Shown: piece after piece, positions 1-17,353 of the stretch | How the letters are laid out: the number at the start of each line of letters is the position of its first letter | How positions within the stretch are numbered: the stretch's first letter is position 1 | Source: Thiomonas bhubaneswarensis | GTDB lineage: Bacteria; Pseudomonadota; Gammaproteobacteria; Burkholderiales; Burkholderiaceae_C | Reading direction: 5' to 3' | Length of the DNA: 63,840 bases | NCBI RefSeq assembly: GCF_001418255.1 | Contig: NZ_LIPV01000010.1 | Coordinates: 87,145 to 150,984, forward strand | Program-made: the position numbers and the translations under genes | The notes under the pieces: generated by a model | The model's input: the letters and a program-made list of their open reading frames with translations, nothing else | The model's database searches: none | What the model was told of the DNA's origin: nothing

Positions 1-98
1 CCCCCCCCCGTGCAATTTCCCCAAATTTTGATCTGCAAAGCGATGACTCTAGTTTGCCGATACGCCAACCAGTAGAACTTTAAGAGGGATACATCACC

Positions 99-1148
99 AT
101 GGATTTTAGAACTGAACATATTTCTTCTTGGCTTCTTTATATGTTTGATGCCACTGCTCAAGAATGGTTGAAATGCTGTAACGATGACGTACTGCGAGCC
201 GAGATTCGAACTCACTGCCAGCAACTTGTTAAATCTGCTTATACGCATGGAGATCGTTCAGCGCTTGAGCAAGTGCATAAAGCACTAGCATTAATTTACA
301 CCAAAGATTTCTCTAGTGCTCAGATTGGCACTATAGAGTGCGAGATGCAACCCATTTTGCGTGACATCTCAGCTATCTTTGAAAAATCGATGATAGATCA
401 TGAAATTAAACAGTTTACGCATGGCTGGCTTGAAGATGTGCCAAAGGATGGACAGCTCTATGTAAAATGGCTGAAAAATATTATTTCTAAGCATTCATCT
501 AGCGTACATCCTTTGTATAACGATTTTCTGGGGCTGCATGCGCAGTCACATCATCTGGCGTATTATCTTGCCCAGGAAACCAATTTGGATCCACGCTTTG
601 ATGATATTCTGGCCTTCCTTCAAGTGGGTCTGCCCGTAGAGCCAAAGTTGGAACTGGCTCAAAATTATTTCGATGAAATGGGCAATGGAAATCCTGCCGA
701 AGTGCATTCTCACATGTTTAAAACTGCACTACAGCAAATTGGCGTAGATGATCAATTTTTACAAGACAATATGCTTTTAGATGCTAAAATATCTGGGAAT
801 ATTTCGGCCGCATTGGCATTGTCGCGTCGACATTATTTCAAGGCGGTTGGTTATTTCGGAGTAACTGAATACTTGGCGCCACGCCGCTTTAAGCATGTTG
901 TCAATGCATGGCGCCGCAATGGCCTGCCGGAATCAGGTATCACTTATCATGAACTGCATATTGGCATAGATGCTGTACATGCCAAAGGCTGGTTTAACAA
1001 CGTGATAATTCCAGCAGTAGAAAACAATATAGATGTTGGTCGTGAAATTGCAATTGGTGCAATGATTCGTCTAAATTCATCAGAGCGGTATTTGAATTCA
1101 TTGTTGCAACATTTCGAAAATCAATATACCGCTATTGACAATGCTTAA
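99..1148 (+). CDS. Haem-oxygenase-like diiron oxidase/oxygenase (HDO)
   Basis: This 349-residue protein carries the metal-ligand pattern of the HDO superfamily (SznF, BesC, FlcD, UndA). Glu160 lies on one helix, Glu193 and His203 follow in an E-x9-H arrangement, and His287-x3-Asp291-x2-His294 completes the set. These enzymes use a labile diiron site and O2 for N-oxygenation, oxidative C-C cleavage or desaturation of amino acids and fatty acids. The substrate here is unknown. It is the first visible gene of a co-directional cluster and ends 12 bases before the dioxygenase gene, so the two are probably co-transcribed. An AGAGGG ribosome site precedes the ATG. Base composition is markedly more AT-rich than the chromosome. 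Family assignment is good; the reaction is not predicted. Confidence 0.8.
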   Translation: MDFRTEHISSWLLYMFDATAQEWLKCCNDDVLRAEIRTHCQQLVKSAYTHGDRSALEQVHKALALIYTKDFSSAQIGTIECEMQPILRDISAIFEKSMIDHEIKQFTHGWLEDVPKDGQLYVKWLKNIISKHSSSVHPLYNDFLGLHAQSHHLAYYLAQETNLDPRFDDILAFLQVGLPVEPKLELAQNYFDEMGNGNPAEVHSHMFKTALQQIGVDDQFLQDNMLLDAKISGNISAALALSRRHYFKAVGYFGVTEYLAPRRFKHVVNAWRRNGLPESGITYHELHIGIDAVHAKGWFNNVIIPAVENNIDVGREIAIGAMIRLNSSERYLNSLLQHFENQYTAIDNA

Positions 1149-1160
1149 GGAGCAAATATC

Positions 1161-1856
1161 GTGTCTTTGAATGATCAAGGCTATACAGTTATAAAAATCC
1201 CGCATGTTAGCGAAAAAATAAAATCCAGTTTTTCCGACTTGGTGTTTGATAAGTATATTGGAAATGGCAATCGCTATCGCCGCTTCTCTCAATACAAAAT
1301 GTATTTTGTTGAGAATTCCTGGAAATTCGAATTACTACCGCACCGGCCTTATATGACATTCTCTAAATACAATAAAGTTGCTGGCGGTATTAAACGTTTC
1401 TACGAGCCTTTGCAAGTAGATTTTACAGACCAGATTGAGGCAATGGCACTTGGTTTTCCACTGGATACGCATGATGATTGGCAAATTAATGTACATCAGT
1501 ATCGTGTGCGCACCGGCCCTGGACTTGCCGGGGTAACAGTTCCGGAAGGGCCGCATCAGGATGGCCATGATTTTGTCGCGATTGCTGTGATCACACGCTT
1601 TGGCATTACTGGTGCAGAAATGACGTTACTGCCACTCGGAGGTGAGGGCGAACCATTCTTCCGTTGCACGGTTCAAGAAGGGGAAATGGCCCTGCTGAAT
1701 GATCGGAAGATGCTTCATTATGTTACAGAGATTGTTGCCACAAATGAAACCGGTTATCGCGACATCTTCGTAGTGGCATTTTCACGTTGGGCTGATCGCT
1801 GGCATGGTGAAGATTTTGAATCTCGAGTTGCAGAGTCAGAGTCTACTGCTGTTTAA
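1161..1856 (+). CDS. 2-oxoglutarate/Fe(II) dioxygenase, PF10014-like
   Basis: The 231-residue product has the facial-triad pattern of the bacterial 2OG-Fe_Oxy_2 family, whose best-known members hydroxylate free amino acids such as isoleucine. His132 and Asp134 lie in PHQDGHD, His186 is the distal ligand and Arg200 is the likely 2-oxoglutarate anchor. It starts at GTG 1161, chosen because AAGGAG sits at an ideal distance upstream and no better ATG matches the family length. It follows the HDO gene by 12 bases and precedes the E1-like gene by 29. A role in hydroxylating or otherwise oxidising an amino acid in the same pathway is an inference. Two different O2-activating iron enzymes side by side is notable. 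Confidence 0.82.
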   Translation: MSLNDQGYTVIKIPHVSEKIKSSFSDLVFDKYIGNGNRYRRFSQYKMYFVENSWKFELLPHRPYMTFSKYNKVAGGIKRFYEPLQVDFTDQIEAMALGFPLDTHDDWQINVHQYRVRTGPGLAGVTVPEGPHQDGHDFVAIAVITRFGITGAEMTLLPLGGEGEPFFRCTVQEGEMALLNDRKMLHYVTEIVATNETGYRDIFVVAFSRWADRWHGEDFESRVAESESTAV

Positions 1857-1885
1857 AGTGCCGTAATATTACGAGGAGAAAATTG

Positions 1886-2698
1886 ATGGCCAATTTTTCA
1901 AGAGACGTACTGTTCAGTCGCATGGTAGGTCTCGTTACCCCAGACGAATTGAACATGCTCGCCACACGTCGGGTGGCGGTTCCAGGCTGTGGCGGTACTG
2001 GCTTTACGTATGCTGAATGCTTGGCACGTATGGGGGTGGGCGGAATCAACATTGCCGATGCCGATACTTTCGGCCCGGAAAACATGAATCGCCAGTTTGG
2101 TTGCACCGTGCATACAGTAGGACAGAAAAAATCTACTGTACTGCGGGAAAGACTTGAGTCGATCAACCCAGATATTGATGTGCGCACTGTTGATTTCATC
2201 GATGAAGGCAATATTCACGCGTATCTTGACGGTGTGGATGTGGTGTGTGATACGCTCGATTTTTTCGTAATCAAACCACGGCGGCTACTCTACAAAGTGG
2301 CACGAGAAAGAGGTATTCCGGTGCTAATATGCTGCCCAGTAGCGTTTGGAGTGACCGGGCATTTATTCTTACCCGATGCTATGACTTTTGAAGCGTATTT
2401 CGGTATCAATGACAATCAGAGCGAGACCGAACAATTGAAGCGCTTTGGTGAGGGTCTGACTCCCGCAGCTTTGTTTAAGGCGTATGCAGACACGCCTAGC
2501 CTCGACTTCGCCCAGCGAAAAGTAGCCTCACTCAGCGCATCATGCCTAATGGCTACGGCGTGGGGTTCTAATCTGGCATTGATGCTGCTATTAGACCAGA
2601 TACCTGGTTTCAAACCTGTGCCTTGGTGCTATCAATTTGATATTCGCGCAGGTCGCTTTGAAGCGGTACAGAACAGCACTGCCTCTCATAACCAATAA
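1886..2698 (+). CDS. E1/ThiF/MoeB-like adenylyltransferase
   Basis: The 270-residue protein begins with a Rossmann-type ATP-binding site, GCGGTG at residues 34-39. The E1 signature of Asp58/60 and NMNRQ (66-70) follows, with a conserved lysine pair at 81-82 and Asp122 of the CDTLD motif. This is the HesA/MoeB/ThiF family, which adenylates a C-terminal or free carboxylate. The CxxC zinc pairs of many ThiF and MoeB proteins are absent, and no ubiquitin-like partner is encoded nearby. Activation of a small-molecule carboxylate for the downstream ArgC-like reductase is therefore a possibility, but an inference. ATG 1886 is preferred over TTG 1883 because of the GAGGAG ribosome site. Confidence 0.78.
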   Translation: MANFSRDVLFSRMVGLVTPDELNMLATRRVAVPGCGGTGFTYAECLARMGVGGINIADADTFGPENMNRQFGCTVHTVGQKKSTVLRERLESINPDIDVRTVDFIDEGNIHAYLDGVDVVCDTLDFFVIKPRRLLYKVARERGIPVLICCPVAFGVTGHLFLPDAMTFEAYFGINDNQSETEQLKRFGEGLTPAALFKAYADTPSLDFAQRKVASLSASCLMATAWGSNLALMLLLDQIPGFKPVPWCYQFDIRAGRFEAVQNSTASHNQ

Positions 2699-2723
2699 CC
2701 ATTGTTACAGGATTAATCCGGGC

Positions 2724-3797
2724 ATGCAAACCTATCGAATTCAGGATTGGGTTTTCAAAGACGCCCTTGGCAAATACGATATTGATCTGGGCGATAGCAA
2801 CGCGCCATGTATTACGCTGGATGACTTCAGCGCTATTCCGCCGGTGGTGTTTGATTACGGCACCGACAGGGGGGCGCAACGATTACGGGAACAAGTTGCG
2901 GATCTTTACCAGCTGCCGCTCGATCATATCGGCATCGCTCATGGCGCACAGGAGGCACTCTATCTCATATATCGCACTTTGCTGAAACCTAGTGATCACA
3001 TCATCACCACTGGTCCAGGTTGGCAGCAATCTTGGGAGGCCCCACGAGCTGTAGGTTGCCAAGTCTCTATCGTGCCTTTTGAAACAGGCTTCAGTTTTGA
3101 TATTGCAGCTATTGCTGCAGCGATCCAGCATGACACCCGTGCCATTGTGATCAACACGCCGTGCAACCCCACAGGTCGAGTGCTTAGTGCAACTGACAGG
3201 GCCGCTTTGATCCAGTTGGTAGAAGAACGTGGACTGTATCTGATTGCAGATGAGGAATATCTGTTTAATCTGGAGCAATCACTGGCGCACTTAAGTCACA
3301 ATGTAGTGTCAGTGTCCAGCCTTTCCAAGATTTATGGGGCTCCAGGATTGCGCGTGGGTTGGGTAGCGGGTGCGCCCATCATTGTTCGTGATGCGATGGC
3401 CTATAAACATCTGACCACTATTTCTAACTCAACACTGTGTGAAACCTTGGGCTCTCTGATTTTAGAGCGGCACCCGCAGTACATTGCGCATTACCAAGCG
3501 CTGATGGAGCATGGCTTGCACATTTTGCGCAAATGGATACAGCGTTACACGGAGTTTGTTGAGTTGGTAGAGCCTGAAGGCACGCCTTTCGCTTGGGTAC
3601 GGCTCAAGGGCGAAGAAACCTCGTTGACGTTCTGCAGACGCGTGCTGCAGACCAGCCGTGTGTTACTGATGCCAGCTGAAGTTTTTGGCGAAAAAAGGGG
3701 TTTGCGGGTTACCTTCGCGCGCGAGCCTGAGCAATTAAAAGCAGGGCTTGCTGGAGTGGCGTGCTGCTTTGAAGATGTACCGCACCCTATGGTGTGA
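2724..3797 (+). CDS. PLP-dependent aminotransferase, class I/II fold
   Basis: The 357-residue product is a fold-type I aminotransferase. It shows the NPTG motif (148-151), the Asp176 region that contacts the pyridine nitrogen, the Schiff-base Lys202 in SSLSKIYG, and Arg210 for the substrate carboxylate. It resembles the many short 'aminotransferase class I/II' proteins of amino-acid-derived biosynthetic clusters rather than a housekeeping aspartate aminotransferase. The start at 2724 aligns the N-terminus with the family; an upstream in-frame ATG at 2637 would overlap the E1-like gene and is unlikely. Together with the ArgC-like reductase it could convert a semialdehyde into an amine, as ArgD does after ArgC, but the substrate is not known. 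Confidence 0.85.
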   Translation: MQTYRIQDWVFKDALGKYDIDLGDSNAPCITLDDFSAIPPVVFDYGTDRGAQRLREQVADLYQLPLDHIGIAHGAQEALYLIYRTLLKPSDHIITTGPGWQQSWEAPRAVGCQVSIVPFETGFSFDIAAIAAAIQHDTRAIVINTPCNPTGRVLSATDRAALIQLVEERGLYLIADEEYLFNLEQSLAHLSHNVVSVSSLSKIYGAPGLRVGWVAGAPIIVRDAMAYKHLTTISNSTLCETLGSLILERHPQYIAHYQALMEHGLHILRKWIQRYTEFVELVEPEGTPFAWVRLKGEETSLTFCRRVLQTSRVLLMPAEVFGEKRGLRVTFAREPEQLKAGLAGVACCFEDVPHPMV

Positions 3798-3843
3798 ATA
3801 TGGCACGATGGGAACTTCACCAACTTCGACGAAGGTCAAATTC

Positions 3844-4788
3844 ATGAGTCTCTACCGGGTATTTATTGACGGCCAGGCTGGCACCACCGGGCTTCAAATC
3901 AGGCAACGCCTAGCTCTTCATCCGCACATTGAGGTGGTGACAATTGCGCATCAGTTGCGCCGAGACAATCAGGCACGTCGTGAGCTAATGGCCGCGGTGG
4001 ACGTAACGGTTTTATGCCTGCCCGACGATGCTGCACGAGAATCAGCCCAGCTGGCAGAAGACGCAGGTTGTCGTGTGTTGGACGCTAGTTCGGCACATCG
4101 TACCAAGCCAGGATGGGTTTTCGGTTTGCCTGAACTCGCGCCAGGCCAAAGAGAAACGATTGCCTCTGCGCGGCAGGTCGCCAATCCGGGGTGCTATGCA
4201 ACCGGCGGCATTTCGTTGTTGCGACCGCTAATTTCGCAGGGATTGTTACCAGATGATGCTGTTTATTGCATCAACGCAATCTCTGGTTATACTGGTGGCG
4301 GTAACAAACTTGTTGAGCAGTACGCCGAGGGTGGACCGGCTTATTCCGCGTATGCACTGGACTTCAGTCACAAGCATATTCCCGAAATCCAGACCTGGAG
4401 CCAACTTAGCGCACGACCCGTGTTTCAGCCTGCGGTAGGGAATTTTGATCAAGGAATGCTCGTTTTTATTCCGGTTGTACATGCGGCAGGTCACAGCCGG
4501 GACCTGCATACCGCGTTGCAACAATGGTACGAAGCTGAAACGTTTGTAAAAGTGCAGGCGTTTAACGAAATTGAACCAACTACTGCACCCATGCTCACGC
4601 CACACGGCACCAATGGAAGCAATAATATTGAGTTATTTGTATTGGCAAACCCTGCGTATTCTGATCGAACTTTGCTGATAGCTAGGCTAGACAATCTGGG
4701 CAAAGGGGCTTCAGGTGCAGCGGTACAAAACCTGAATATCATGCTGGGCTTGCCGGAGAGTTTGTGCACAAATCTACCCGTCGCTTGA
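3844..4788 (+). CDS. ArgC-type (short form) N-acyl-gamma-glutamyl-phosphate reductase-like protein
   Basis: The 314-residue protein has the NADP-binding GQAGTTG motif (10-16) and the catalytic cysteine in NPGCYATG (Cys117), matching the shorter 'type 2' ArgC family that reduces acyl-phosphates to semialdehydes. No acetylglutamate kinase or other arginine gene is nearby, so a role in arginine synthesis is unlikely. The local partners are the aminotransferase just upstream and the DapF-fold protein downstream. An activated carboxylate would be needed, and the E1-like enzyme of this cluster is the only visible candidate activator (inference). ATG 3844 gives the family N-terminus; longer in-frame starts run back into the aminotransferase gene. 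Confidence 0.83.
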   Translation: MSLYRVFIDGQAGTTGLQIRQRLALHPHIEVVTIAHQLRRDNQARRELMAAVDVTVLCLPDDAARESAQLAEDAGCRVLDASSAHRTKPGWVFGLPELAPGQRETIASARQVANPGCYATGGISLLRPLISQGLLPDDAVYCINAISGYTGGGNKLVEQYAEGGPAYSAYALDFSHKHIPEIQTWSQLSARPVFQPAVGNFDQGMLVFIPVVHAAGHSRDLHTALQQWYEAETFVKVQAFNEIEPTTAPMLTPHGTNGSNNIELFVLANPAYSDRTLLIARLDNLGKGASGAAVQNLNIMLGLPESLCTNLPVA

Positions 4789-4896
4789 CACCCTGAAATC
4801 TGAGCTCATTTAGAGCCGCCAATGCGTGCTCATCGAACGTATTGGGGACTTAGGTCGCATTTTTACTGCATCGTTATTTTAAATGGGGTTGCTTGT

Positions 4897-5751
4897 ATGG
4901 AATTTTTTAAATATCAGGCATTGGGGAATGATTATCTGATATTAGAGCCGCGCTGGTTCAGTGAAACTATCCCGCCTGCGTTTATCCGCCAGCTGTGCAA
5001 TCGTCGGTTTGGTGTTGGTGCTGACGGAGTCATAATCGGACCGTGGCGAGCACCTGATGGTGCTTACGGTCTACGCATCTTCAATGCGGATGGCTCAGAG
5101 TGTGAAAAAAGCGGCAATGGTTTACGCTTGTTCGCTCGTTATCTGGTTGATGTCGGGTATGCCACAGAGTCAGAACTGCGACTGTCCCTGTTATATACCG
5201 GAGAAATCGTCAACGTTAGTTTTCTGCGCACCGAACATGCTATCCGTGTGGATTTGGGTAGCTATTGCTTTGATGCAATAGCCCTGCAAGCCAGCACCTC
5301 GCAGGAGCAATTACGCAATTACCCCCTTGAAATAGGCGGCAAGGTGTTCACCATCACTGGTGTGGACGTGGGCAACCCGCATTGTGTGGTCTGGGTAGAT
5401 AGCCTCAGTGCCGAACTGGCGCGAACCTGGGGGCCCCGGATCGGCACTTGCACGCTATTCCCGCAAAAAACAAATGTGCAGTTCGCTCGCGTGCTGGACA
5501 GGAGAAACGTGCAGATCGAAATCTGGGAGCGCGGTGCAGGTTACACCCTGGCGTCTGGTAGTAGTGCGTGCGCGGTAGCCGCCGTGGCGTATGACTCTGG
5601 GTTGGTAGACGCTGCTGTCACCGTACACATGCCCGGAGGCCAAGTGCAGGTAGATTTAAACGCAAACCATACACTGGCGCTGACTGGCCCTGCACAACGG
5701 GTTGCGCTGGGCCGCGTCTCCGCTGATTTTGGAAGCCAGATGCTGGCCTGA
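4897..5751 (+). CDS. DapF-fold protein lacking both catalytic cysteines
   Basis: The 284-residue protein is clearly of the diaminopimelate epimerase fold, with QALGNDYLI at the N-terminus, NADGSE...SGNGLR (63-77) and WERGAGYTLASGSSACA (210-225). In true DapF these two motifs read CGNG and ACGTGACA, and the two cysteines do the two-base proton transfer. Here codon AGC gives Ser72 and the second position is Ser220, so both catalytic cysteines are serine. One other cysteine (Cys69) sits three residues before Ser72. Ordinary epimerase chemistry is therefore doubtful, and isomerase, lyase or cyclase activity on a pathway intermediate is more likely (inference). ATG 4897 matches the family start. 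It is followed 15 bases later by the acetyltransferase gene. Confidence 0.82.
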   Translation: MEFFKYQALGNDYLILEPRWFSETIPPAFIRQLCNRRFGVGADGVIIGPWRAPDGAYGLRIFNADGSECEKSGNGLRLFARYLVDVGYATESELRLSLLYTGEIVNVSFLRTEHAIRVDLGSYCFDAIALQASTSQEQLRNYPLEIGGKVFTITGVDVGNPHCVVWVDSLSAELARTWGPRIGTCTLFPQKTNVQFARVLDRRNVQIEIWERGAGYTLASGSSACAVAAVAYDSGLVDAAVTVHMPGGQVQVDLNANHTLALTGPAQRVALGRVSADFGSQMLA

Positions 5752-5766
5752 TACGAGGACCCGATT

Positions 5767-6288
5767 ATGAACTGGACATTCCGGCCCGCGTGCAGCGGCG
5801 ACCTGCCACAAATTGTTGAAATTTACAACCAATCTGTTGTCACCCTGGAAAGCACTTGTGATACCGAACCCGTGAGCGTGGCCTCACGCGAGGTTTGGTT
5901 TGAGCGCCATCTAGCGACTAGCTGCCGCCCTTTATGGGTCGCTCAAAGCGATGACCTGGCACTACCTGGGCTGGCTGGCTATTTGTCATTCTCGCACTTC
6001 ATGAACGAACGCCCAGGCTACTCTATTACTGCGGATATGGGCTTGTACCTGCATCGTGATGCACAAGGGAAAGGGCTTGGCACCTTTTTGCTGCGTAATG
6101 CCATTGAGGCCGCGCCTAGTTTGGGAATTGAAACCCTGGCCACCACCATTTTTGCGTCCAACATCGCCAGCTTGCGGCTGTTCAAAGGCCAAGGGTTTGG
6201 GGAGTGGGGCTATATGCCGCGTGTTGCGCGACTGCGTGGTATAGAGCGCGATCTGATTATGGTGGGACGTCGCGTTGTACTCGACTGA
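5767..6288 (+). CDS. GNAT N-acetyltransferase, phosphinothricin/methionine-sulfoximine type
   Basis: The 173-residue protein fits the Pat/YwnH branch of GNAT acetyltransferases, with an early DLPQIVEIYN segment, an acetyl-CoA loop around RDAQGKGLG and a C-terminal NIASLRLFKGQGF segment. Relatives acetylate the alpha-amine of glutamate or methionine analogues such as phosphinothricin. In a biosynthetic cluster this can either protect an intermediate's amine, allowing ArgC-like chemistry, or give self-resistance to a toxic product. The sequence cannot decide between these. It is the last gene of the AT-rich block, beginning 15 bases after the DapF-like gene and followed immediately by transposase debris. 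Confidence 0.83.
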   Translation: MNWTFRPACSGDLPQIVEIYNQSVVTLESTCDTEPVSVASREVWFERHLATSCRPLWVAQSDDLALPGLAGYLSFSHFMNERPGYSITADMGLYLHRDAQGKGLGTFLLRNAIEAAPSLGIETLATTIFASNIASLRLFKGQGFGEWGYMPRVARLRGIERDLIMVGRRVVLD

Positions 6289-6296
6289 ATCGGCAC

Positions 6297-6551
6297 TTAT
6301 TGACCTACTTTCTTCTGCACAGGCTTTATTAACCACTCGTACTGCTCTTTGACTTCCAGAGGTTTGGTGCGCAGGGCGTTCTCCATGCCGGGCTTGCCCT
6401 CATCAACCCAGGACTCGACCTCCGAGGGGTTGAGATCGAAGGCCCGGCTTGACTCGGAGACCGTGCTTTTACCTTGGATGATATCCAGAACCAGGGCCGT
6501 TTTTCGCTTGGCCGTCCAGCGTTTGATGTCGTCTTCCATCAGGGTGCTCAT
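6297..6551 (-). pseudogene. IS3-family OrfA-type transposase subunit, C-terminally altered remnant
   Basis: Residues 1-60 of this 84-residue reading frame, with RWTAKRKTALVLDIIQGKSTV and a NPSEVESWVDEG helix-turn-helix, resemble the small first ORF of certain IS3-group elements (DUF1153-like). After EQYEW the sequence departs from the expected continuation and stops early, and no OrfB follows. It is best read as an IS remnant that marks the junction between the AT-rich cluster and the GC-richer radical SAM/exporter pair. Confidence 0.6.
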
Positions 6552-6863
6552 CGTCGTTCCTTTCAACGTTAACACCTGTGCAGGAATTCACTGGGTCAAT
6601 ACATGCGGGCCTTGGTTTTCTCCAAAGCGTCCATGATCGCCCCCATGGGCGTGTCCTTGTCCAGCGCTTTGCGGTGGCTGGGCATCATGGCCACGTGCCA
6701 ACAGTACGGCCTGCATAATGCCGGAGCCTGTCATACCTGACAGGTTCCGTCTCAAGGACTTTCTCTTACAGTGGTCACTTCGAGAGGCACCGCGAGCTGA
6801 GGCGTGCGCCGACCGGTTACAGCAGTCCTCAGACAATATCTACAATACCGAGAGAACCGCACC
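6552..6863. other. Intergenic segment without a supported gene; possible promoter
   Basis: No reading frame here has family features. A promoter-like pair, TTACAG at 6817-6822 and TACAAT at 6841-6846 with an 18-base spacer, faces the radical SAM gene. The predicted transcript would have a very short leader, so this is tentative. The segment probably contains further unrecognisable IS debris. Confidence 0.35.
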
Positions 6864-8462
6864 ATGAGCGAGCCGAGGGTAGTCGTATTCTTTGTCAATC
6901 CGCCGAACAGCAATGATCTGGATGCTGACGACGTGGGCGAAGCAAGCGACATCGTTGTATCGAAGGGCATTCAACATACTGACTGGGCTAATTTCCCGCA
7001 TCTCGGTATCCTGTCACTGGCTTCTTATGTCGATGCGCTTCCGGGCTTCGAAGGCTGTTACGTCGATGGCGTAATTCATCCGCTCGAACGTATTCTTGCA
7101 GTTATTCGCGAGCGGGCTGGCCGCACACTCGCCGTTTGTCTCAGTGCGATCACGGCCAATTATGAAGCCGCGATCCGGATTGCCGGCGCAGTCAAATCCA
7201 TCGATTCGAATATCTCGATCGTGATCGGTAACGATCATTTCACTGCATTGAGCCGAGAGATTCTCCATCGCCACGGTGATCTGATCGATTGCGGATTTGT
7301 CGGCAACGAAGTGTATGGCGGCCTGGTCGATTTCCTGAGGGATCGGCAGCAATCACGAGCCGCCAGCCTCTATCCCGGTTCGGTTCGCTTGGAATCCGGG
7401 AGGATCGTTGCCGATCCTGCGATTCGAGAGCCTGTGAACCGCATCATCGACTACGGCTTGATCGACCGGACCTTGCCGCATACTGCCGTCTACACCGAGA
7501 ATTTCACCCGGCGCCTCGGCCGGCGGATCCTGGCACTGACTGGGCGGCAGGTGCGCAAGGGCGTGCCTGTCGAAATCGGACGCGGCTGCATCAAATTCAG
7601 CGGCGACGACGCCTGTTCATTCTGTTCGATTCAGTACGGCTCCATGTGGAAGAATGAACTGCCAGCAGACCACGCATGGTCCGCCGTACGAGGCGCATGG
7701 GAGGCAGGCTACGATTATCTGTACGTGACGGCCGACGAGTTGCCGCTCACGTTCGCACGGCTGATGCTCGACATGGCGGACTCGCCGCCGCCATGGTGGT
7801 GCGCGCTGCCAGTAGACGAGCGCCCGGTCTTGGTTGGCTACGCGCGCGCGGACGGTATGGAGAAGGAGCAAGTACTGAAAGCTATGAGCGAGATCGGTTT
7901 TCGCATTCTGTTTGTGGGCGTCGACGCAGGCGCCGCGCGCTCTTTGCTGGCGCTCAACAAGCCGCTACGGAACAAGGATCCGGTGGCAGCTGCGCATCGG
8001 ATGGCCGACGCCAATCTGCGTGCTCTGTACAACGCACGCGCGCATGGAGTAGCGATCAAGGCAGGATTCGTGCTGGGGCATTTGGGGATGAACGAGGCGT
8101 TGCTGGCGGAAAACATCGAGACCTACATCGCCTTTCTCAAGGCCGGGCGGGATGTGATCATCAGCGCCGACATCGAATTGCTGTCGCCGGAACCGGGATC
8201 GAAGGATTTTCGCTATCTGACTGACCCGGACGAGGCTGAAACAATGTCGGATCGATTGGGTCTCGCGATCGGAAGCCGCGCACTGCGGCAGCATGTGGCC
8301 AATCGCTACCGGAACGTCGATATCTTTGATCGCGAGGCCGCCATTGACGACTATATCGGTGTGTTCATGCCCGAACTGTCTAAGGAGCGGCTCGCCACCG
8401 CACGCGATCAGGTGCGCGGCGAATGCGGTCGACTCGGGATCGTGATTGGAGACGACCTTTAA
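6864..8462 (+). CDS. Radical SAM protein with cobalamin-binding-like N-terminus
   Basis: The 532-residue protein has an N-terminal alpha/beta region (about 1-170; NFPHLGILSLASY, CLSAITANYE, VIGNDHF) typical of B12-binding-like domains. A radical SAM core follows, with iron-sulfur cysteines Cys242, Cys251 and Cys254 in GRGCIKFSGDDACSFCS. The spacing is C-x8-C-x2-C rather than the classical C-x3-C-x2-C. Several B12-radical SAM methylases and mutases have such variants, but the reaction here is unknown. The stop codon overlaps the start of the LysE-type exporter by one base, implying coupled translation and a product that is exported. Base composition is closer to the chromosome than the upstream cluster, so the pair may have arrived separately. 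Confidence 0.78.
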   Translation: MSEPRVVVFFVNPPNSNDLDADDVGEASDIVVSKGIQHTDWANFPHLGILSLASYVDALPGFEGCYVDGVIHPLERILAVIRERAGRTLAVCLSAITANYEAAIRIAGAVKSIDSNISIVIGNDHFTALSREILHRHGDLIDCGFVGNEVYGGLVDFLRDRQQSRAASLYPGSVRLESGRIVADPAIREPVNRIIDYGLIDRTLPHTAVYTENFTRRLGRRILALTGRQVRKGVPVEIGRGCIKFSGDDACSFCSIQYGSMWKNELPADHAWSAVRGAWEAGYDYLYVTADELPLTFARLMLDMADSPPPWWCALPVDERPVLVGYARADGMEKEQVLKAMSEIGFRILFVGVDAGAARSLLALNKPLRNKDPVAAAHRMADANLRALYNARAHGVAIKAGFVLGHLGMNEALLAENIETYIAFLKAGRDVIISADIELLSPEPGSKDFRYLTDPDEAETMSDRLGLAIGSRALRQHVANRYRNVDIFDREAAIDDYIGVFMPELSKERLATARDQVRGECGRLGIVIGDDL

Positions 8463-9073
8463 TGCTGCCAGAAAAAGCGCTGTTCTTCGGCCTAACCTGC
8501 CTCGGGTTCGGTTTCATTCCTGGGCCTGCACTGCTACAGACTGTATCGTTGACGCTTCAGCACGGGCGGCGTGTCGGCTTCCTGTCTGCGCTCGGCATTC
8601 ACCTCGGCGCCTTTTTCCAGATCTGCATCGTCGCGCTCGGTGCGGTCGCGGTGCTGAAGACATCACCGATGCTGTATCACGTGCTCAAGGTGGTCGGTGG
8701 AGGCTATCTGATCTGGCTCGGCATCCAGCGCATCCGTGCACCCGTAAGGCATGACGAGGAGATCGACGTGCCGAACAACGTTGTGTCGTCGAGCGCGTTC
8801 ATCGAGGCGTCGAATCCGAAATCAGCACTGTTCTATTTTTCGTTTCTGCTGCAATTCACCGATCCTGACGCGTCGCTCGGGCTCGGCTGGCAACTGTTCT
8901 TGCTCGGCGCTTGCGCCAACCTGCTGTTTTCCGCCGCCGACGTGTTCTGCATCCTGCTCGCCCATCCGTTGCGTGCCCGCGTGTCACCGGGCGGCCAGGC
9001 ACTGCGGGTCGGCCAGTTGCTCGCCGGCACGCTGTTCGTTGTGCTGGGCGTGATCGCGATCATCGGCGATTAG
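8462..9073 (+). CDS. LysE/RhtB-family amino-acid exporter
   Basis: The 203-residue membrane protein opens with the family hallmark FIPGPALLQTVSL and the GRRVGFLSALGIHLG loop, followed by about six hydrophobic segments including GGGYLIWLGIQRIR. LysE/RhtB proteins export basic or neutral amino acids and analogues through the inner membrane. The ATG overlaps the radical SAM stop codon (TAATG), so the two are expressed as a unit. Export of the radical SAM product, or of the amino-acid-like product of the AT-rich cluster, is the natural hypothesis but is inferred from position only. No companion LysR-type regulator is seen. Confidence 0.85.
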   Translation: MLPEKALFFGLTCLGFGFIPGPALLQTVSLTLQHGRRVGFLSALGIHLGAFFQICIVALGAVAVLKTSPMLYHVLKVVGGGYLIWLGIQRIRAPVRHDEEIDVPNNVVSSSAFIEASNPKSALFYFSFLLQFTDPDASLGLGWQLFLLGACANLLFSAADVFCILLAHPLRARVSPGGQALRVGQLLAGTLFVVLGVIAIIGD

Positions 9074-9276
9074 TGCTGGTGGCCTGGGTGAGTCTCGACG
9101 CGTTCCTTCCACAGCTCAGCAGACTCAGCGTCATACCCTTGCGGCGCATCTCATGGTGCACCTGACCGCACGCTGAGCAGACTGGCCAGTAGCGCGTGAG
9201 TTTGCCAACCTCATATCCATTTTGCCACACAAAGCGGCATAGTAGAGCTCCCCTGGGATCCTGCTGAGGGGCTGAT
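9074..9276 (-). pseudogene. Possible decayed TnpB/IS605-OrfB zinc-ribbon end
   Basis: On the minus strand a frame ending near 9063 contains VCSACGQVHHEMRRKG and then LSCG 18 residues after the first CxxC pair, like the C-terminal zinc ribbon of IS605-type OrfB proteins. A neighbouring frame contains GTRRDSPRPPAL, which resembles the expected HDRD-NAA ending, suggesting a frameshift. The match is short and degenerate, so this is only a weak call. Confidence 0.25.
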
Positions 9277-9663
9277 TCAAACGAGTATCCGAATACTGGC
9301 CAGCGCCTGATGGAGCCGCTCGAACAGGGCGTCCACCATATTGTGGGTCTTGAGGGCTTCGCGGAACGCCCAGACGGTACGGGCATCGGGCACGTCGCCC
9401 GAGAGTTCAAGACCGAAGAAACTCATGAAGGAAAGCTGATCGGTGACCTGGAATTGCAGGCGTTCGACGGAAAGGTTGTGCAGGCGCTGCAGGATGAGCA
9501 GCTTGAACATGAGCACGCGGCAGGTGGTCTTGTGCCCGGCAGCGCTCTTGCGCTGCTTGGCGTCGATGCGCTCAAGGATGGGGCGGAAGACTTCCCAGTC
9601 GATGACGGCATCGAGCCGTTCCAGGGGATCCGTGCCGCCACCTGTCCCATGAACCATATACAA
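9277..9663 (-). pseudogene. IS5-family transposase, N-terminal fragment
   Basis: The 128-residue frame matches the start of IS5-group transposases: WEVFRPILERIDAK, then FKLLILQRLHNLS and GDVPDARTVWAFREAL, the DUF772 region. Complete members are about 320-360 residues with a DDE catalytic domain, all of which is missing after LFERLHQALA. It is a truncated insertion-sequence remnant between the exporter and the island integrase and should be inactive. Confidence 0.75.
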
Positions 9664-9685
9664 CGCTGTCTCTTTTAGCGCTTGC

Positions 9686-10816
9686 TTATCCCAGCTTCTT
9701 CGCCAGCTTCTCCGCCTCGATGTGCGTGTAGCGCTTGAGCATGGACAGGCTCTTGTGGCCGGTCATGCTGGCGACTTCCATGATGCCCAGGCCCTTCTCG
9801 AAAAGCCTTGAAGTCGCCTCATGTCTGAGGTCGTGAAAGTGCAGATCATCAAGGAAGGGATCGGATTGCAGCCGACCCCATAGCGCCGCAGCGCGAGGGT
9901 CGGGTTCTCGCTTGTGCCATTGGAGGGCTCGGGCCTGCGCTTCACCGTCCAGCCCGATGCTGTCCAGCTCAGTGCGCAGCTTGTTCAGCAGGGCCGTGCG
10001 CCGTGCGCGCGCAAGCCAGCGCGTCCATACCGCCTTGAAGCCCTCGGCCGTCTTCCACCGGAACACTAACCCGTCCAGCCTGCGCGGCAGGCTTTGCAGG
10101 GCCTCCACCGCCTTGCTGGACAGCGCCACAGTCCGGCTCTCGCCATTCTTGGTTCGGGGCAGATGCGCCGTGCGGCGCTTGAGATCGATATGCTCCCACC
10201 AAAGTCCGAGCATCTCACCCCTGCGCATACTGGTTTCCAGCGCCAGGGTCAGAATGGCGATCTGATCGGCATTCTCGGTCGCCGCCCGAAGCGCATCCTC
10301 TTCGCCTGGGCGAAGCCGGCGATCCCGCGCAGGCGCGGCGGCGGGCAATGCCAACCGTCTCACGGGGTTGCCTTGCGGCAGATCGATGCCAAGTTCACGC
10401 TCGGCATGGGTGAAGACCACGGACAGCGCGGCAAGATAATGCCGCGCCGATTGGGAGGCGTAGCCCTGCGCGAGCAAATCATCACGCCATGCGGCGATAT
10501 CCAGTCCCCGGATGTTGGCAAGAAACAGCTTCCCGAAACGCGCCCGCGCCGCCTCCAGGCGAACCGGGATGTTGTGCCGGCTTCGCTGCGCGGCCAGCCT
10601 TGGACTGGCGAGATAGGCGTCAATGACTTCGCTCAAGGTCGTGCGCTGCGCCTCCTGCCGAAGCACGGTAAGATTGCCGCGTTGCAGTTCGCGCTCAGCT
10701 TCGCGCCCCCAGGCTTCGGCATCGGCCTTGAGGTCGAAGGTTCGACTGATTGACTGCGCTCCCTTGCGCCGGATCTGAACGCGCCAGCCGCCTTTTCTCT
10801 GCTCGATGTGCGCCAT
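9686..10816 (-). CDS. Tyrosine recombinase, island integrase
   Basis: The 376-residue protein has an N-terminal arm-binding segment (IEQRKGGWRVQIRRKG), a core-binding SAM-like region and a catalytic domain. The arginine lies in LETSMRRGEMLGL, the HxxR pair in FHDLRHEATSRL, the late histidine in MTGHKSLSML and the nucleophile in RYTHIEAEKLA. Length and motifs suggest an intact enzyme. Its start lies 87 bases from the tRNA-Pro fragment, the classical position for an integrase that recombines a tRNA attachment site, so it probably inserted this island. The downstream IS5 fragment lies immediately beyond its stop. Excision activity is not predictable from sequence. Confidence 0.88.
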   Translation of the reverse strand: MAHIEQRKGGWRVQIRRKGAQSISRTFDLKADAEAWGREAERELQRGNLTVLRQEAQRTTLSEVIDAYLASPRLAAQRSRHNIPVRLEAARARFGKLFLANIRGLDIAAWRDDLLAQGYASQSARHYLAALSVVFTHAERELGIDLPQGNPVRRLALPAAAPARDRRLRPGEEDALRAATENADQIAILTLALETSMRRGEMLGLWWEHIDLKRRTAHLPRTKNGESRTVALSSKAVEALQSLPRRLDGLVFRWKTAEGFKAVWTRWLARARRTALLNKLRTELDSIGLDGEAQARALQWHKREPDPRAAALWGRLQSDPFLDDLHFHDLRHEATSRLFEKGLGIMEVASMTGHKSLSMLKRYTHIEAEKLAKKLG

Positions 10817-10902
10817 GCTTCATTCCCCCTGTATTCCCCCAAATGGCTTGAAAAAACAGAAAGAATCAAGCATTCATGCGGGTTACAGAGATTCTAGTTT
10901 AC

Positions 10903-10949
<47 letters not shown>

Positions 10950-11018
10950 GTTTTCATCGGTATGCCGAGGTTTTCGCAAGCCCGCTGGGATAGTGGGTGT
11001 GGCATATCGAGCAGTTTT

Positions 11019-11095
11019 CTGCCCGTAGCTCAGCTGGATAGAGCAACGGCCTTCTAAGCCGTAGGCCACTGGTTCGAATCCAGTCGGGCAGGCCA
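11019..11095 (+). tRNA. tRNA-Arg(TCT)
   Basis: A full cloverleaf can be drawn. The acceptor stem pairs CTGCCCG with CGGGCAG, followed by discriminator G and an encoded CCA. The D-arm is GCTC-AGCTGGATA-GAGC, the anticodon arm ACGGC-CTTCTAA-GCCGT gives anticodon TCT, and the T-arm is ACTGG-TTCGAAT-CCAGT. It marks the start of ordinary chromosome to the right of the island. Confidence 0.96.
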
Positions 11096-11157
11096 TGATC
11101 GCGCGGACAGTGGCTTTGCGACCCCGGCCCATGAAGGGTGACACCTTCGCGCTGGGT

Positions 11158-11733
11158 TTACATACCCATTCGTACAAGCGCCATCAGCCAGAGGCCGACG
11201 CCTCCGGCCGCGCTGGCGAAGGCCAGAGCGAAAAGCCAGCGGCGCCCGGTCAAGGCGGTGATCGAGGCCAGGGAAATCGCGATTTGCAGAAAGATCAGGC
11301 TGCGTGCCAGTTCGGTGTGCGGGCGGTTGAGGCGATCGGACTCGTTGTCGGCTTTGAGGGATGCCTGTTCGAGCGCTTCGGCCTGCCGCTTGATGCTGAT
11401 TTTTTGCTGATCGTATTTCTGAATTTTGGCGCTGATCGCCGCCTGCCGTTCGGGCGGTGCGAGGTCGCGCGCGAGTTCCATCAGGTGTTCCTTGGTGCTG
11501 ACGGCCTCGTAGTAATTCCATTGATCGGTGGCGTGGGCCTTCTGGAGCACGGCCTCGTTTTTGTGCAGAAGCACCTCGTTCATGAGGTGACTGCCCTGAT
11601 AGCTGACGATGGCGCCCAGCGCGGCCAGCAAGGCGGTGAAGATCGCGACCCATTGACTCAGGGGATGATGGGCCGCCTGTTCTTCGACGAACTCTTCATG
11701 CGGGGCGTGAGTGTGGATGCCGGATTCGCTCAT
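11158..11733 (-). CDS. DUF4337 family membrane protein
   Basis: The 191-residue protein has a first hydrophobic helix (WVAIFTALLAALGAIVSY), then a long charged, glutamine- and lysine-rich central region likely to be coiled coil or periplasmic helices (about 50-135), and two close C-terminal membrane helices. This is the layout of DUF4337 proteins, whose function is unknown. It lies downstream of the glycogen operon in the same orientation but is separated from pgi by about 100 bases, so co-transcription is uncertain. Confidence 0.75.
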   Translation of the reverse strand: MSESGIHTHAPHEEFVEEQAAHHPLSQWVAIFTALLAALGAIVSYQGSHLMNEVLLHKNEAVLQKAHATDQWNYYEAVSTKEHLMELARDLAPPERQAAISAKIQKYDQQKISIKRQAEALEQASLKADNESDRLNRPHTELARSLIFLQIAISLASITALTGRRWLFALAFASAAGGVGLWLMALVRMGM

Positions 11734-11830
11734 GGGTGCACAGCCGTGGGGTAGATGGGAAGGGTGCAGGCGTGCCTGACCGAGCGCCCCGGATGGGCCG
11801 CTCGCGCAGTGTGCGTGGGTCGGAACAGCG

Positions 11831-13339
11831 TCAGTTGCTGTGGGCGCGAAGGTAATCGATCGAAGCGGCGGTCTCGGCGCTCAGCCCCTGGGCATTTTGT
11901 GACAGCAGAGCATTTTCGATCTTGGTGGCCAGGGTCTTGCCGAGCTCCACGCCCCATTGATCGAAGGGGTTGATGCCGTAGAGCCAGCCTTCCACCACGG
12001 TACGGTGTTCGTAGAGAGCGAGCAGGGCGCCGAGATGGTAGGGGCTGAGTTGCTCCATCCAGATGAAGGTGGACGGACGGCCGCCGGGGCAGGCACGGTG
12101 ATGCGCGGCGCGGGCGGCGGCTTCGGGCGTCATGCCCTGCGCCATCAGCTCGGTCTGCCAGCTCGAGGCGTCTTTGCCGTTCCACAAGGCGTCGGCCTGG
12201 CCGAGTGCGTTGGCCAGCAGGGCGAGATGCTCGCGCAGGTGGCGGTGCCAGGGGTGAGCCACGGCGACGATTTCGTGAAACACCGGCACGGCGGCCTGAT
12301 GCAGCAATTGAAAATAGGTGTGCTGCACCGGAGTGCCCACGCCGCTGATGACCGCCGGGCCGCTGACGTGAACGGGTTGCACGCCGTCGGCGCTGGTGGA
12401 CTTGCCCAGCGACTCCATCAGCAATTGCTGCAGGTACAGCGGCATGTGCGAGAAGGCGTCGCCATAGAGGCCGATGGACAGCAGCGGCAGACCGAAGCGC
12501 ACGCGGTAGGCGTGCGACAGGCCGGCCATGAGTCCGGGGGCGCTCTGTTCCAGTGGGGTCTCGATGAAGTGGGTGTCCATCGCATGCGCGCCGGCATGGA
12601 GCTGGGTGACGGTCTCGCGGCCGAAGGCCAGCAGCAGCACGAGGCCGTGCGCGCTCCACAGCGAGAAGCGCCCGCCGATTTCCGGCAGGGAGCGGAAGAT
12701 CTGATCGGCCGGAAGGCCGAAACGCTGCAGCGCCAGCTCGGCATTGGCGGTCAGGGCGACCAGTCTGGAGCGGGCCTTGTCGGCACCGATGCCGTCGCCC
12801 AGCCAGCGCAGCGCGATGTCGGCGTTGCGCATGACCTCCTGGGTGCGGAAGGACTTGCTGTTGATGATGATCCAGCTGCGTTCGGGCTTGGCCGCGTTGA
12901 GTGCGGCGTCGATGGTGGCGCCGTCGAGGTTGGCGACCCAGTGAATCCGCACGCGCGAGGGCTGGAGCACCGAGATCGCGGTGTAGAGCGCACGCATCGG
13001 GGTTTCGGAGCCGCCGGCGCCGAGGTGGATGATGTCCAGTCCTTCGGGGCCGGCGTCGTTCACGATCTGCTCCGCCCAGTCGGTCATGCGGGCGAACTCG
13101 GCATGCAGAAAATCAGCCGCGGCCTGCGACGTGGCATCACGCCCCTTGGCGCCCAGTCGTGACAGTACATGCCAGGCAGGGCGGTTTTCGCTGCCGTTGA
13201 GCACCGTCTTGTTCACCAGGTCTTCGGCCTTTTGCGGCAGGGCGGCCAGAGTCTTGAGGGCAGTGGCCAGAGCCTGCTCGCCGTGTCGGGTGAATTCTAG
13301 GCGCAGGCCGGCGGTGTCGATGGTCTTGGGTGCGGGCAT
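11831..13339 (-). CDS. pgi: Glucose-6-phosphate isomerase
   Basis: The 502-residue protein interconverts glucose 6-phosphate and fructose 6-phosphate. Recognisable family blocks include HLGAGGSETPMRAL near the phosphate site, IINSKSFRTQE, LPEIGGRFSLWSAHG, and the C-terminal INPFDQWGVELGK with its catalytic lysine. It is somewhat shorter than the E. coli enzyme (549) and belongs to a divergent bacterial branch. As the last gene of the glycogen operon, 40 bases after glgP, it links glucose 6-phosphate from glycogen or from gluconeogenesis to fructose 6-phosphate. Confidence 0.92.
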   Translation of the reverse strand: MPAPKTIDTAGLRLEFTRHGEQALATALKTLAALPQKAEDLVNKTVLNGSENRPAWHVLSRLGAKGRDATSQAAADFLHAEFARMTDWAEQIVNDAGPEGLDIIHLGAGGSETPMRALYTAISVLQPSRVRIHWVANLDGATIDAALNAAKPERSWIIINSKSFRTQEVMRNADIALRWLGDGIGADKARSRLVALTANAELALQRFGLPADQIFRSLPEIGGRFSLWSAHGLVLLLAFGRETVTQLHAGAHAMDTHFIETPLEQSAPGLMAGLSHAYRVRFGLPLLSIGLYGDAFSHMPLYLQQLLMESLGKSTSADGVQPVHVSGPAVISGVGTPVQHTYFQLLHQAAVPVFHEIVAVAHPWHRHLREHLALLANALGQADALWNGKDASSWQTELMAQGMTPEAAARAAHHRACPGGRPSTFIWMEQLSPYHLGALLALYEHRTVVEGWLYGINPFDQWGVELGKTLATKIENALLSQNAQGLSAETAASIDYLRAHSN

Positions 13340-13379
13340 GAGGAGTCAGGAGCTGAGGTGGGTGAAGGGCCAGTGCAGG

Positions 13380-15863: not shown

Positions 15864-17353
15864 GTCGGTTGCTTGGGAAGATCGGGGAGTGCGGCAGAAT
15901 AGACCGCGCGGTAGTGCCGGGCCGCTTGCGTCCAGCTGAAATCTTGCTGCATGCCGTTTTGCCGCACCCGTGACCAGGCGCGCGGCTGGCGATGCAGGGC
16001 CAGAGCGCGACGGACGGCGTGGCGGTAATCGGCCTCGGAAAAGCTAGCAAAAACGATGCCCGTGGCCGTGCCGTCGTCGAGGGTGGCGAGATCGGCATCG
16101 ACCACGGTGTCGGCCAGGCCGCCGACGGCGCGCACCAGCGGCAGACTGCCGTAGAGCAGGCCATACATCTGGGTCAGCCCGCAGGGCTCGAAGCGCGAGG
16201 GAACCAGCGTGATGTCGCTGCCAGCAAAAATGCGGTGGGCGTAGTGCTCGTCGTAGCCCACGCGCAGCGCCACGGCACCGGGGTGGCGCTGCGCGGCATG
16301 CGCGAAGGCGGCTTCCAGCGCGTGATCGCCGCTGCCCAGCACCAGCAGTTGCCCGCCGCCATGCACAAGGTCGTCGACGCCGGCGAGCACCAGGTTGAGG
16401 CCTTTTTGCTCGGTCAGACGGCTGACCACGGTGAACAACGGCGCGTCCTTGCGCGCTTCCAGCCCGGCTTCGGCCTGCAACGCGGCCTTGCAACGGGCCT
16501 TGCCCGTCATCTGCTCCACGCCGTAGTGCCGGGGAATGAGCGGGTCGGTGGCGGGGCTCCACACCGTGGTGTCGACGCCGTTGAGGATGCCGCTCAGATC
16601 GTTGCGGCGGCTGCGCAGCAGGCCGTCGAGGCCGAAGCCTTGCTCGGGCGTCTGAATCTCGCGGGCGTAGGTGGGGCTGACGGTGGTGATCTTGTCGGCG
16701 TAGAACAGGCCGGCTTTCATGAACGAGATCTGGCCGTGAAACTCCAGGCCGTCCATCTGAAACGCGGCGGGCGGCAATCCCAGATCGGCGAACTGGTCGG
16801 CGCCGAAAATGCCCTGATACGCCAAGTTGTGCACGGTGTAAACGCAAGGCACGCGCCGCCCCGCGGTGAGCTTGATGCAGGCGGCGACCAGCCCGGCATG
16901 CCAGTCGTGGCCGTGGACGAGTTGCGGCGACCAGTTGGGGTCGAGACCGCGCGCTAGATGCGCCGCCGCCCAGCCCAGCGCGGCAAAGCGGCGGTGGTTG
17001 TCGGCATACGGCCGACGCTGTGCGTCCTCGTAGGGGTTGCCGGGGCGTTCGTACAGGCTGGGCGCTTCCACCACATAGGCGAGTGACGCTGCGCCATCGG
17101 CGCCAGGCACTGCGGGCAGGGTGCCGCCGAGCACCTGCGCCGCCTCGCCCCAGGGCAGGGTGAAGCGGCCGACGGGCGCGGCATTCTGCAGTCCGGCGAG
17201 GATGGCGGGAAACCCCGGCAACAGCACGCGCACCTCGCAACCCGCACCGGCCAGCGCCGCAGGCAGGGCGCCGGCCACGTCGGCCAGCCCGCCCGTCTTG
17301 AGCAGGGGGTAGATTTCGGCACTGACCTGCAAAACCCGAACCGAATCAGTCAT
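15860..17353 (-). CDS. glgA: Glycogen synthase, ADP-glucose type
   Basis: The 497-residue GT5 glycosyltransferase extends alpha-1,4-glucan from ADP-glucose. The N-terminal sugar-nucleotide loop is [24 protein letters not shown] begins the second Rossmann domain, and [18 protein letters not shown]-like residues ([11 protein letters not shown]) form the catalytic C-terminal site. The start at 17353 is chosen because ATGACTGA overlaps the glgC stop by eight bases and gives the standard N-terminus [14 protein letters not shown]; a longer in-frame ATG at 17365 lies within glgC. Confidence 0.96.

Follow-up and report, generated by a model that had tools for sequence, protein, structure and literature searches.

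A mobile seven-gene operon of Thiomonas bhubaneswarensis that probably builds and tailors a nitrocyclopropyl amino acid without a peptide synthetase

Nitrocyclopropane amino acids are associated with two peptides of Streptomyces, belactosin and hormaomycin (PMC10764440). Both clusters carry a trio of genes, belK-belL-belM or hrmI-hrmJ-hrmT, in which BelK/HrmI convert lysine to 6-nitronorleucine and BelL/HrmJ close the nitrocyclopropane (PMC10764440; PMC13108848). Homologues of belL are present in many Actinomycetota and Proteobacteria (PMC10764440), so that a proteobacterial belL is in itself not new, and the HDO family, to which HrmI belongs, is functionally diverse (PMC13108848). Here we describe a seven-gene operon of Thiomonas bhubaneswarensis at positions 99-6288 of a stretch of 63,840 bases (the window; bases 87145-150984 of the 150,984-base contig NZ_LIPV01000010.1, ending at the contig end), which joins a known nitrocyclopropane start to a new tailoring set free of nonribosomal peptide synthetases (NRPS). 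It is probable, in our view, that the operon synthesises an amino acid with a nitrocyclopropyl group and modifies it further with neither an NRPS nor a peptide ligase, and its gene set suggests a small bioactive molecule as the product.

The original prediction, made from the DNA letters and their open reading frames (ORFs), had seen seven co-directional, tightly spaced genes of named enzyme families, and both statements held. In the ORF list of the window all seven appear as open frames on the + strand, with intergenic gaps of 12, 29, 25, 46, 108 and 15 bases in operon order, computed with the preferred start codons ATG at 1886, 2724, 3844 and 4897. Matches to PF14518, PF10014, ThiF, pyridoxal phosphate (PLP) enzyme, TIGR01851, TIGR00652 and GNAT models agree with the families, which include a 2-oxoglutarate (2OG) and iron enzyme:

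99-1148, + strand: HDO, predicted HrmI/BelK-like lysine N6-oxygenase of 349 amino acids (PF14518, E 3.4e-35; PDB HrmI 9n1a)
1161-1856, + strand: 2OG-Fe enzyme, predicted BelL/HrmJ-like nitrocyclopropane synthase of 231 amino acids (PF10014, E 5e-43; PDB 9dq0, 8jms)
1886-2698, + strand: E1-like adenylating enzyme of ThiF/PRK08223 type (PF00899, E 1.2e-31; PRK08223 230 bits, below the cut-off of 266)
2724-3797, + strand: PLP enzyme (class I/II) of the GntC/VioD/PRK07324 group (NCBIfam matches below cut-offs; PDB 3op7, 8fft, 4m2j)
3844-4788, + strand: ArgC-like reductase of TIGR01851 type (369 bits, cut-off 230)
4897-5751, + strand: DapF-fold protein, BelM/HrmT-like, with Ser in place of both catalytic Cys (TIGR00652 213 bits, cut-off 115)
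5767-6288, + strand: ArsN1a/Pat-like GNAT N-acetyltransferase (ArsN1a 79.5 bits, below the cut-off of 170; PDB 1vhs, E 8e-34)

The G+C content from the HDO gene to the GNAT gene is 0.41, 0.44, 0.50, 0.52, 0.52, 0.54 and 0.55, the two genes after the operon stand at 0.58 and 0.61, and the window past base 10,000 at 0.65. The claim that the composition differs from the chromosome is therefore upheld, but because G+C climbs along the operon the label AT-rich suits its 5' genes best.

The first two enzymes point to the nitrocyclopropane core. Residues 22-342 of the HDO match HrmI (PDB 9n1a) at E 1.3e-112; its second-best PDB match is at E 0.0035. The best PDB matches of the 2OG enzyme are 9dq0 (E 2.8e-62) and 8jms (E 5e-62), which are labelled only as BsmA domain containing protein and which we take to be BelL homologues from the mention of a ScBelL structure in the review (PMC10764440). 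Its metal ligands H132-x-D134 and a distal His are conserved in the alignment. Residue 136, a His as in BelL by the numbering of the review, was rejected as a predictor of stereochemistry, since the solved homologue also has His. Judged by homology, the HDO, the 2OG enzyme and the DapF homologue of the operon are the belKLM/hrmIJT trio, and the most likely route is from lysine through 6-nitronorleucine to 3-(2-nitrocyclopropyl)alanine (Ncpa). The original prediction knew of no described pathway with this gene set; three of the seven, however, correspond to a described set, so that the beginning of the pathway is known chemistry.

The trio recurs as a unit. Searched by tblastn against a plasmid set, the HDO matched 46 records and the 2OG protein 41, and seven of these matches were opened. 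Among them, Agrobacterium vitis pRvVAT039a and Streptomyces NBC_01216, like the window, a Pantoea metagenome-assembled genome (MAG) and Pantoea sp. Mb-10, pair an HrmI-like HDO with an adjacent, intact BelL-like 2OG gene; all five loci also have a DapF homologue within that gene group. The A. vitis and NBC_01216 loci have the three genes consecutively in the order HDO-2OG-DapF, with an EamA gene upstream, and their DapF homologues share the Ser/Ser feature discussed below; unlike the operon, they continue after the trio with a molybdopterin oxidoreductase, of the type given for BelN (PMC10764440), and an aldo/keto reductase. The NBC_01216 locus adds a PLP enzyme (27% identical to that of the window) and a reductase of the ornithine cyclodeaminase family.

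On its own account, the NBC_01216 locus (8039-16052) holds the trio, the molybdopterin reductase, the aldo/keto reductase, the PLP enzyme and an imine reductase of the ornithine cyclodeaminase family. Purely as a hypothesis, this set could convert cis-aminocyclopropylalanine to 4,5-methanoproline via a keto acid, a cyclic imine and its reduction.

Set against the described clusters, the operon shares with the belactosin A cluster (belK, belL, belM, belN) the HDO, the 2OG enzyme and the DapF homologue, and there they serve a lysine-derived nitrocyclopropane (PMC10764440). In place of the molybdenum nitro reductase predicted for belactosin and its ATP-grasp ligases (PMC10764440), the operon has the E1-like enzyme, the PLP enzyme, ArgC and the GNAT; neither a molybdenum nitro reductase nor an ATP-grasp ligase was found among the ten window proteins scanned (99-9073) or the scanned Pantoea genes, the other flank genes being unscanned. 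The hormaomycin cluster (hrmI, hrmJ, hrmT) has the same trio, with HrmI as the match of the operon HDO, but relies on NRPS assembly (PMC10764440), and no NRPS was seen at the operon: no ORF of more than 750 amino acids is listed in the 24.1-kb island that contains it, and the long ORFs scanned are a relaxase and a DUF3987 protein.

The whole operon has been found a second time. A pattern search of genome contigs with the 2OG protein, which being pattern-based misses distant kin, returned only two loci, in Pantoea sp. Mb-10 and the Pantoea MAG, and both have the identical seven-gene order. The two records are 97.5% identical over 13,267 bases, with 18 substitutions across the eight genes from HDO to EamA, and, being near kin, amount to a single independent repeat; even so, the repetition of a seven-gene order is more than chance. 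Protein identity between the window and Pantoea sp. Mb-10 is 55% for the HDO, 65% for the 2OG enzyme, 73% for ThiF (the best conserved of the seven), 49% for the PLP enzyme, 53% for ArgC, 35% for the DapF-like protein and 49% for the GNAT. The Pantoea operon is preceded by a small ferredoxin gene and followed by an EamA transporter gene, and its G+C content is uniformly low (0.38-0.44 across the seven genes) between flanks of 0.55 and 0.61. As a separate observation, the slope from 0.41 to 0.61 across positions 99-9073 of the window is absent in the Pantoea copy.

The shared gene neighbourhood that the original prediction expected is thus present. Its suggestion of a small modified amino acid, made with neither NRPS nor polyketide synthase, is supported, as is the horizontal acquisition of the cluster. 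Nor do the homologues occur only singly or as housekeeping genes alone: the host genome carries another DapF and another ArgC elsewhere, so that the operon copies are not displaced housekeeping genes, and together with the Pantoea synteny this rules out a chance assembly of housekeeping duplicates. The operon as one of the 12 known Pantoea antibiotic clusters was also rejected, as an epimerase, ThiF and an aminotransferase are absent from the main text of PMC11350110, gene contents not having been compared singly.

Searches in wider sets of genomes gave few matches. In the genus Pantoea 2 of 61 genomes matched. Apart from its own genome, the HDO had no match among 398 genomes sampled from the phylum (E 1e-50) or among 12 further members of the genus (E 1e-3), and a search of 60 relatives gave the own genome and one of the same family at 33% identity. 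The 2OG enzyme had no match outside its own genome in a sample of 399 genomes of the order (E 1e-30), and ThiF none in the 12 other genomes of the genus (E 1e-20) or in viral contigs. By megablast against plasmids the Pantoea operon gave no match and window positions 1-9700 a single match of 108 bases (6496-6603). No title or abstract on the seven-gene set was found among the literature matches listed, most subscription journals lying outside the coverage.

The four remaining enzymes resemble the acetylated ornithine pathway (ArgA-ArgB-ArgC-ArgD), with which the operon shares an ArgC, an N-acetyltransferase and a PLP enzyme. It differs in having an E1-like enzyme for ArgB, a Pat-like GNAT and a GntC-like PLP enzyme. 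ArgC passes the N-acetyl-gamma-glutamyl-phosphate reductase equivalog (TIGR01851), its substrate being predicted from sequence, and retains 73 of the 79 columns invariant among six ArgCs, which were chosen out of 126 plasmid records and show 40-47% identity. The active-site Cys of NPGCY and His of HKH are among the residues retained. ThiF carries GCGGTG, DAD, NMNRQ and GxKK in the window and Pantoea copies, in agreement with the GxGGxG, Asp, N-x-x-R-Q and Lys nucleotide motifs of E1-like enzymes. An AlphaFold model of ThiF from a two-sequence alignment was poor (mean pLDDT confidence score 62.8).

Matches to ThiF at E 1e-40 or better occur in 14 of the 398 phylum genomes, its own included. Three of the 13 others were opened, and two adjoin a TIGR03694 acyltransferase gene and one a gene for a PEP-CTERM protein. 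The likeness to the PRK08223 ThiF of PEP-CTERM/exosortase loci therefore extends to the subfamily (35-41% identity) and to an adjoining acyltransferase, but the N-acetyltransferase of the operon is of another kind; no exosortase gene turned up among the genes scanned near the operon, in which no search was aimed at exosortases. Because its relatives adjoin N-acyltransferase genes, there is a weak hint that the E1-like enzyme has N-acylated amino acids as substrates. The E1-like enzyme could stand in place of an acyl-phosphate kinase, which the ArgC active site and the two acyltransferase-adjoining relatives favour.

These parts can be combined into a pathway. By homology, the HDO would oxidise lysine to 6-nitronorleucine and the BelL/HrmJ-like 2OG enzyme would close the ring to give Ncpa. 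The acetyltransferase would protect the alpha-amine, the E1-like enzyme would adenylate a carboxylate, reduction of the activated acyl group by ArgC would give an aldehyde and the PLP enzyme would transaminate it, so that the tailoring would follow the logic of ArgA-ArgB-ArgC-ArgD with the E1 standing in for ArgB. The product would leave through an exporter, EamA in Pantoea and, as a candidate here, LysE. That the product is an antimetabolite with its own protection is plausible; the acetyltransferase, which scores below the cut-offs not only for ArsN1a but for phosphinothricin acetyltransferase (25.9 of 300 bits), may instead be a pathway enzyme.

Several observations weigh against this reading. 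Three Streptomyces plasmids have an HrmI-like HDO and a small neighbour gene, which in the one aligned (L004) is 2OG-like without metal ligands, and in two others from Streptomyces (L007, L008) a BelL-like gene stands without an annotated HDO or DapF within 18.7 kb, so that neither family alone proves Ncpa. The HDO and 2OG enzyme might be related enzymes that differ in substrate or in outcome, stopping for instance at hydroxylation, and the operon make no nitrocyclopropane, as the diversity of the HDO family and the BelL-like genes lacking an annotated HDO nearby would allow; given how far the HrmI match (E 1.3e-112) stands from the next (E 0.0035), the 2OG matches at E 3e-62 and the presence of the DapF partner, we hold this to be very improbable.

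Of the tailoring enzymes, ThiF, the PLP enzyme and the GNAT all fall below the cut-offs of the NCBIfam models named, and the PLP enzyme is nearest to the cyclases GntC and VioD and to PRK07324, not to ArgD. It might accordingly act like GntC or VioD on 6-nitronorleucine or Ncpa, by elimination, ring opening or re-cyclisation, so that the final product would be no simple nitrocyclopropane. GntC and VioD are its best family matches, GntC is a gamma-hydroxyarginine cyclase (PMC10367076), and in Streptomyces NBC_00557 the gene of its closest plasmid relative (43.7%) comes immediately after one for a 2OG dioxygenase. Yet its scores are about half of the cut-offs (GntC 212.7 of 415 and VioD 185.7 of 390.9 bits), PRK07324 aminotransferases score nearly as high (203.9 bits, also below cut-off), and the alignments begin past the N-terminal positions of the Glu and the Ser-Ser pair that GntC, VioD and OrfR are said to have (PMC10367076). 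We judge a cyclase-like role to be quite unlikely.

A further difficulty lies in the substrate of ArgC. ArgC usually reduces a side-chain carboxyl, and Ncpa has no second carboxylate; for the well-kept ArgC the alpha-carboxyl of Ncpa would be a poorer fit than a substrate of N-acyl-glutamyl type. The trio could make Ncpa while the GNAT, the E1-like enzyme, ArgC and the PLP enzyme act on a second substrate, such as glutamate or aminoadipate, in an ArgA-ArgB'-ArgC-ArgD route to an ornithine-like or lysine-like unit that serves as precursor or second building block. The retained ArgC columns with Cys and His, the score far above the TIGR01851 cut-off and the classical pattern of N-acetylation, ArgC and a PLP enzyme all fit this arrangement, but no ligase is seen in the operon for joining two units, the host has another ArgC elsewhere and the PLP enzyme is not ArgD-like. 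As Ncpa offers an alpha-carboxylate only, we retain a second substrate as an unlikely alternative to tailoring of Ncpa itself. Finally, as regards the expression of the operon, a 10-N gap between the HDO gene and the luxI gene upstream leaves their distance and a common transcript uncertain.

Two side observations concern the plasmids above. A VlmB-like gene is near the HrmI-like HDO in two of the three (L005, L006), and the BelL-like genes of L007 and L008 sit with methyltransferase, ATP-grasp and GNAT genes, and in L007 also with a PLP decarboxylase by Pfam.

The DapF homologue is the member of the trio on which the operon bears most directly. In all four DapF-like proteins aligned (window, Pantoea sp. 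Mb-10, A. vitis and NBC_01216) Ser occupies both catalytic Cys positions, the first site reading DGSEC-x-x-SGN, with a conserved Cys three residues ahead, and the second S-[GS]-[SN], and all three housekeeping DapFs examined (own genome and two Pantoea) have Cys at both. By eye, the four proteins keep most of the positions that hold the amino acid (Asn in GN, in NV and in FNxDG or its variants, and Glu-Arg in WER), and two of the four have lost the Asn of GNPH. An AlphaFold model from a two-sequence alignment was poor (mean pLDDT 62.0), and a fold search with it gave DapF structures as best matches.

DapF catalysis depends on a thiol-thiolate pair (PMC12039745), and single Cys-to-Ser changes strongly lower the turnover of a histidine racemase of the DapF fold (PMC11602996). 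As both thiols are absent and DapF chemistry depends on them, the cluster proteins are, to judge from their sequences, very unlikely to be diaminopimelate epimerases. In its available text, the review explains the DapF homologue of the trio only as a possible lysine supply (PMC10764440); the Ser/Ser pair in all four proteins weighs against this guess, and we reject lysine supply by the DapF homologue for the same lack of both thiols.

The DapF-like protein may instead bind the nitro amino acid or handle its acidic nitro C-H. Since a nitro C-H is far more acidic than the alpha C-H of an amino acid, a base weaker than a thiol could, speculatively, suffice.

The operon lies on a mobile island. 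The stretch from a tRNA-Pro gene to a 47-base repeat identical to the 3' end of that gene forms an integrative element of 24,114 bases, the upstream part of which holds the tRNA-Pro, an IS110-type transposase, a MobA/VirD2-like relaxase, a DUF3987 protein, LuxR and LuxI. In the window, the operon is followed by:

6297-6575, - strand: transposase-like ORF 3' of the operon (DUF1153, E 1.2e-6; HTH_Tnp_1, E 6e-4)
6722-6749, no strand: inverted repeat with the lux-box-like core CTGTCA-N4-TGACAG, upstream of the radical SAM-like gene and possibly linked to LuxR
6864-8462, + strand: radical SAM-like protein with a B12-binding domain (PF02310, E 2e-9)
8462-9073, + strand: amino acid exporter of the LysE family (PF01810, E 2.4e-26; start set by eye, ORF from 8423)
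9686-10816, - strand: tyrosine integrase of the island (PF00589, E 2.5e-26)
10903-10949, no strand: attachment repeat of 47 bases, identical to the 3' end of the upstream tRNA-Pro (6681-6727 of the upstream stretch L014)

The luxI gene ends about 150 bases before the HDO gene, with a 10-N run between them (L014 19836-19845), an assembly gap just ahead of the first base of the window, which opens on a run of C. As the LuxI and LuxR genes adjoin the operon, its expression is likely to be under quorum sensing. A perfect palindrome, CTGTCAGATCTGACAG, lies 45 bases upstream of luxI, and the repeat at 6722-6749 has the same core with 2 mismatches in 16 and 12-base arms. By chance, matches with at most 3 mismatches arose in 20 of 100 window shuffles and matches with at most 2 in none of 60 simulated windows; the repeat could also be a plain hairpin, and it was not found in the Paraburkholderia sabiae stretch.

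In P. sabiae a copy of the radical SAM-like protein (78.5% identical) stands beside a LysE gene with none of the seven genes annotated within 29.5 kb, in a plasmid of incomplete annotation. The radical SAM-LysE pair was therefore rejected as a part of the operon and is treated as a separate module. Relatives of the radical SAM-like protein at 44% are found in Streptomyces and Embleya NRPS clusters with phosphotransferase and urease genes, and its cysteines read CX8CX2C by eye.

Taken to its furthest, the proposal is of a mobile operon under quorum-sensing control that makes an undescribed free nitrocyclopropane metabolite, by a new logic of tailoring, in which the E1, replacing an acyl-phosphate kinase, supplies ArgC with an acyl adenylate and an aldehyde or amine results, and in which the thiol-free DapF proteins, perhaps BelM and HrmT too, are a new type of enzyme for the nitro C-H (through a nitronate or epimerisation) or a carrier of the nitro amino acid. 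In this full form it is tentative, and we think it rather unlikely to hold in every part. Of all that is proposed for the operon, the corrected view of DapF is the most testable point; the finding of Ser for Cys makes the question of the DapF homologue directly testable. If the pairing of the E1 with ArgC is true, it would be a new route for carboxylate reduction. A compact, NRPS-free operon in a Gram-negative host also offers a simple system for the missing functions of the trio, above all that of the DapF homologue.

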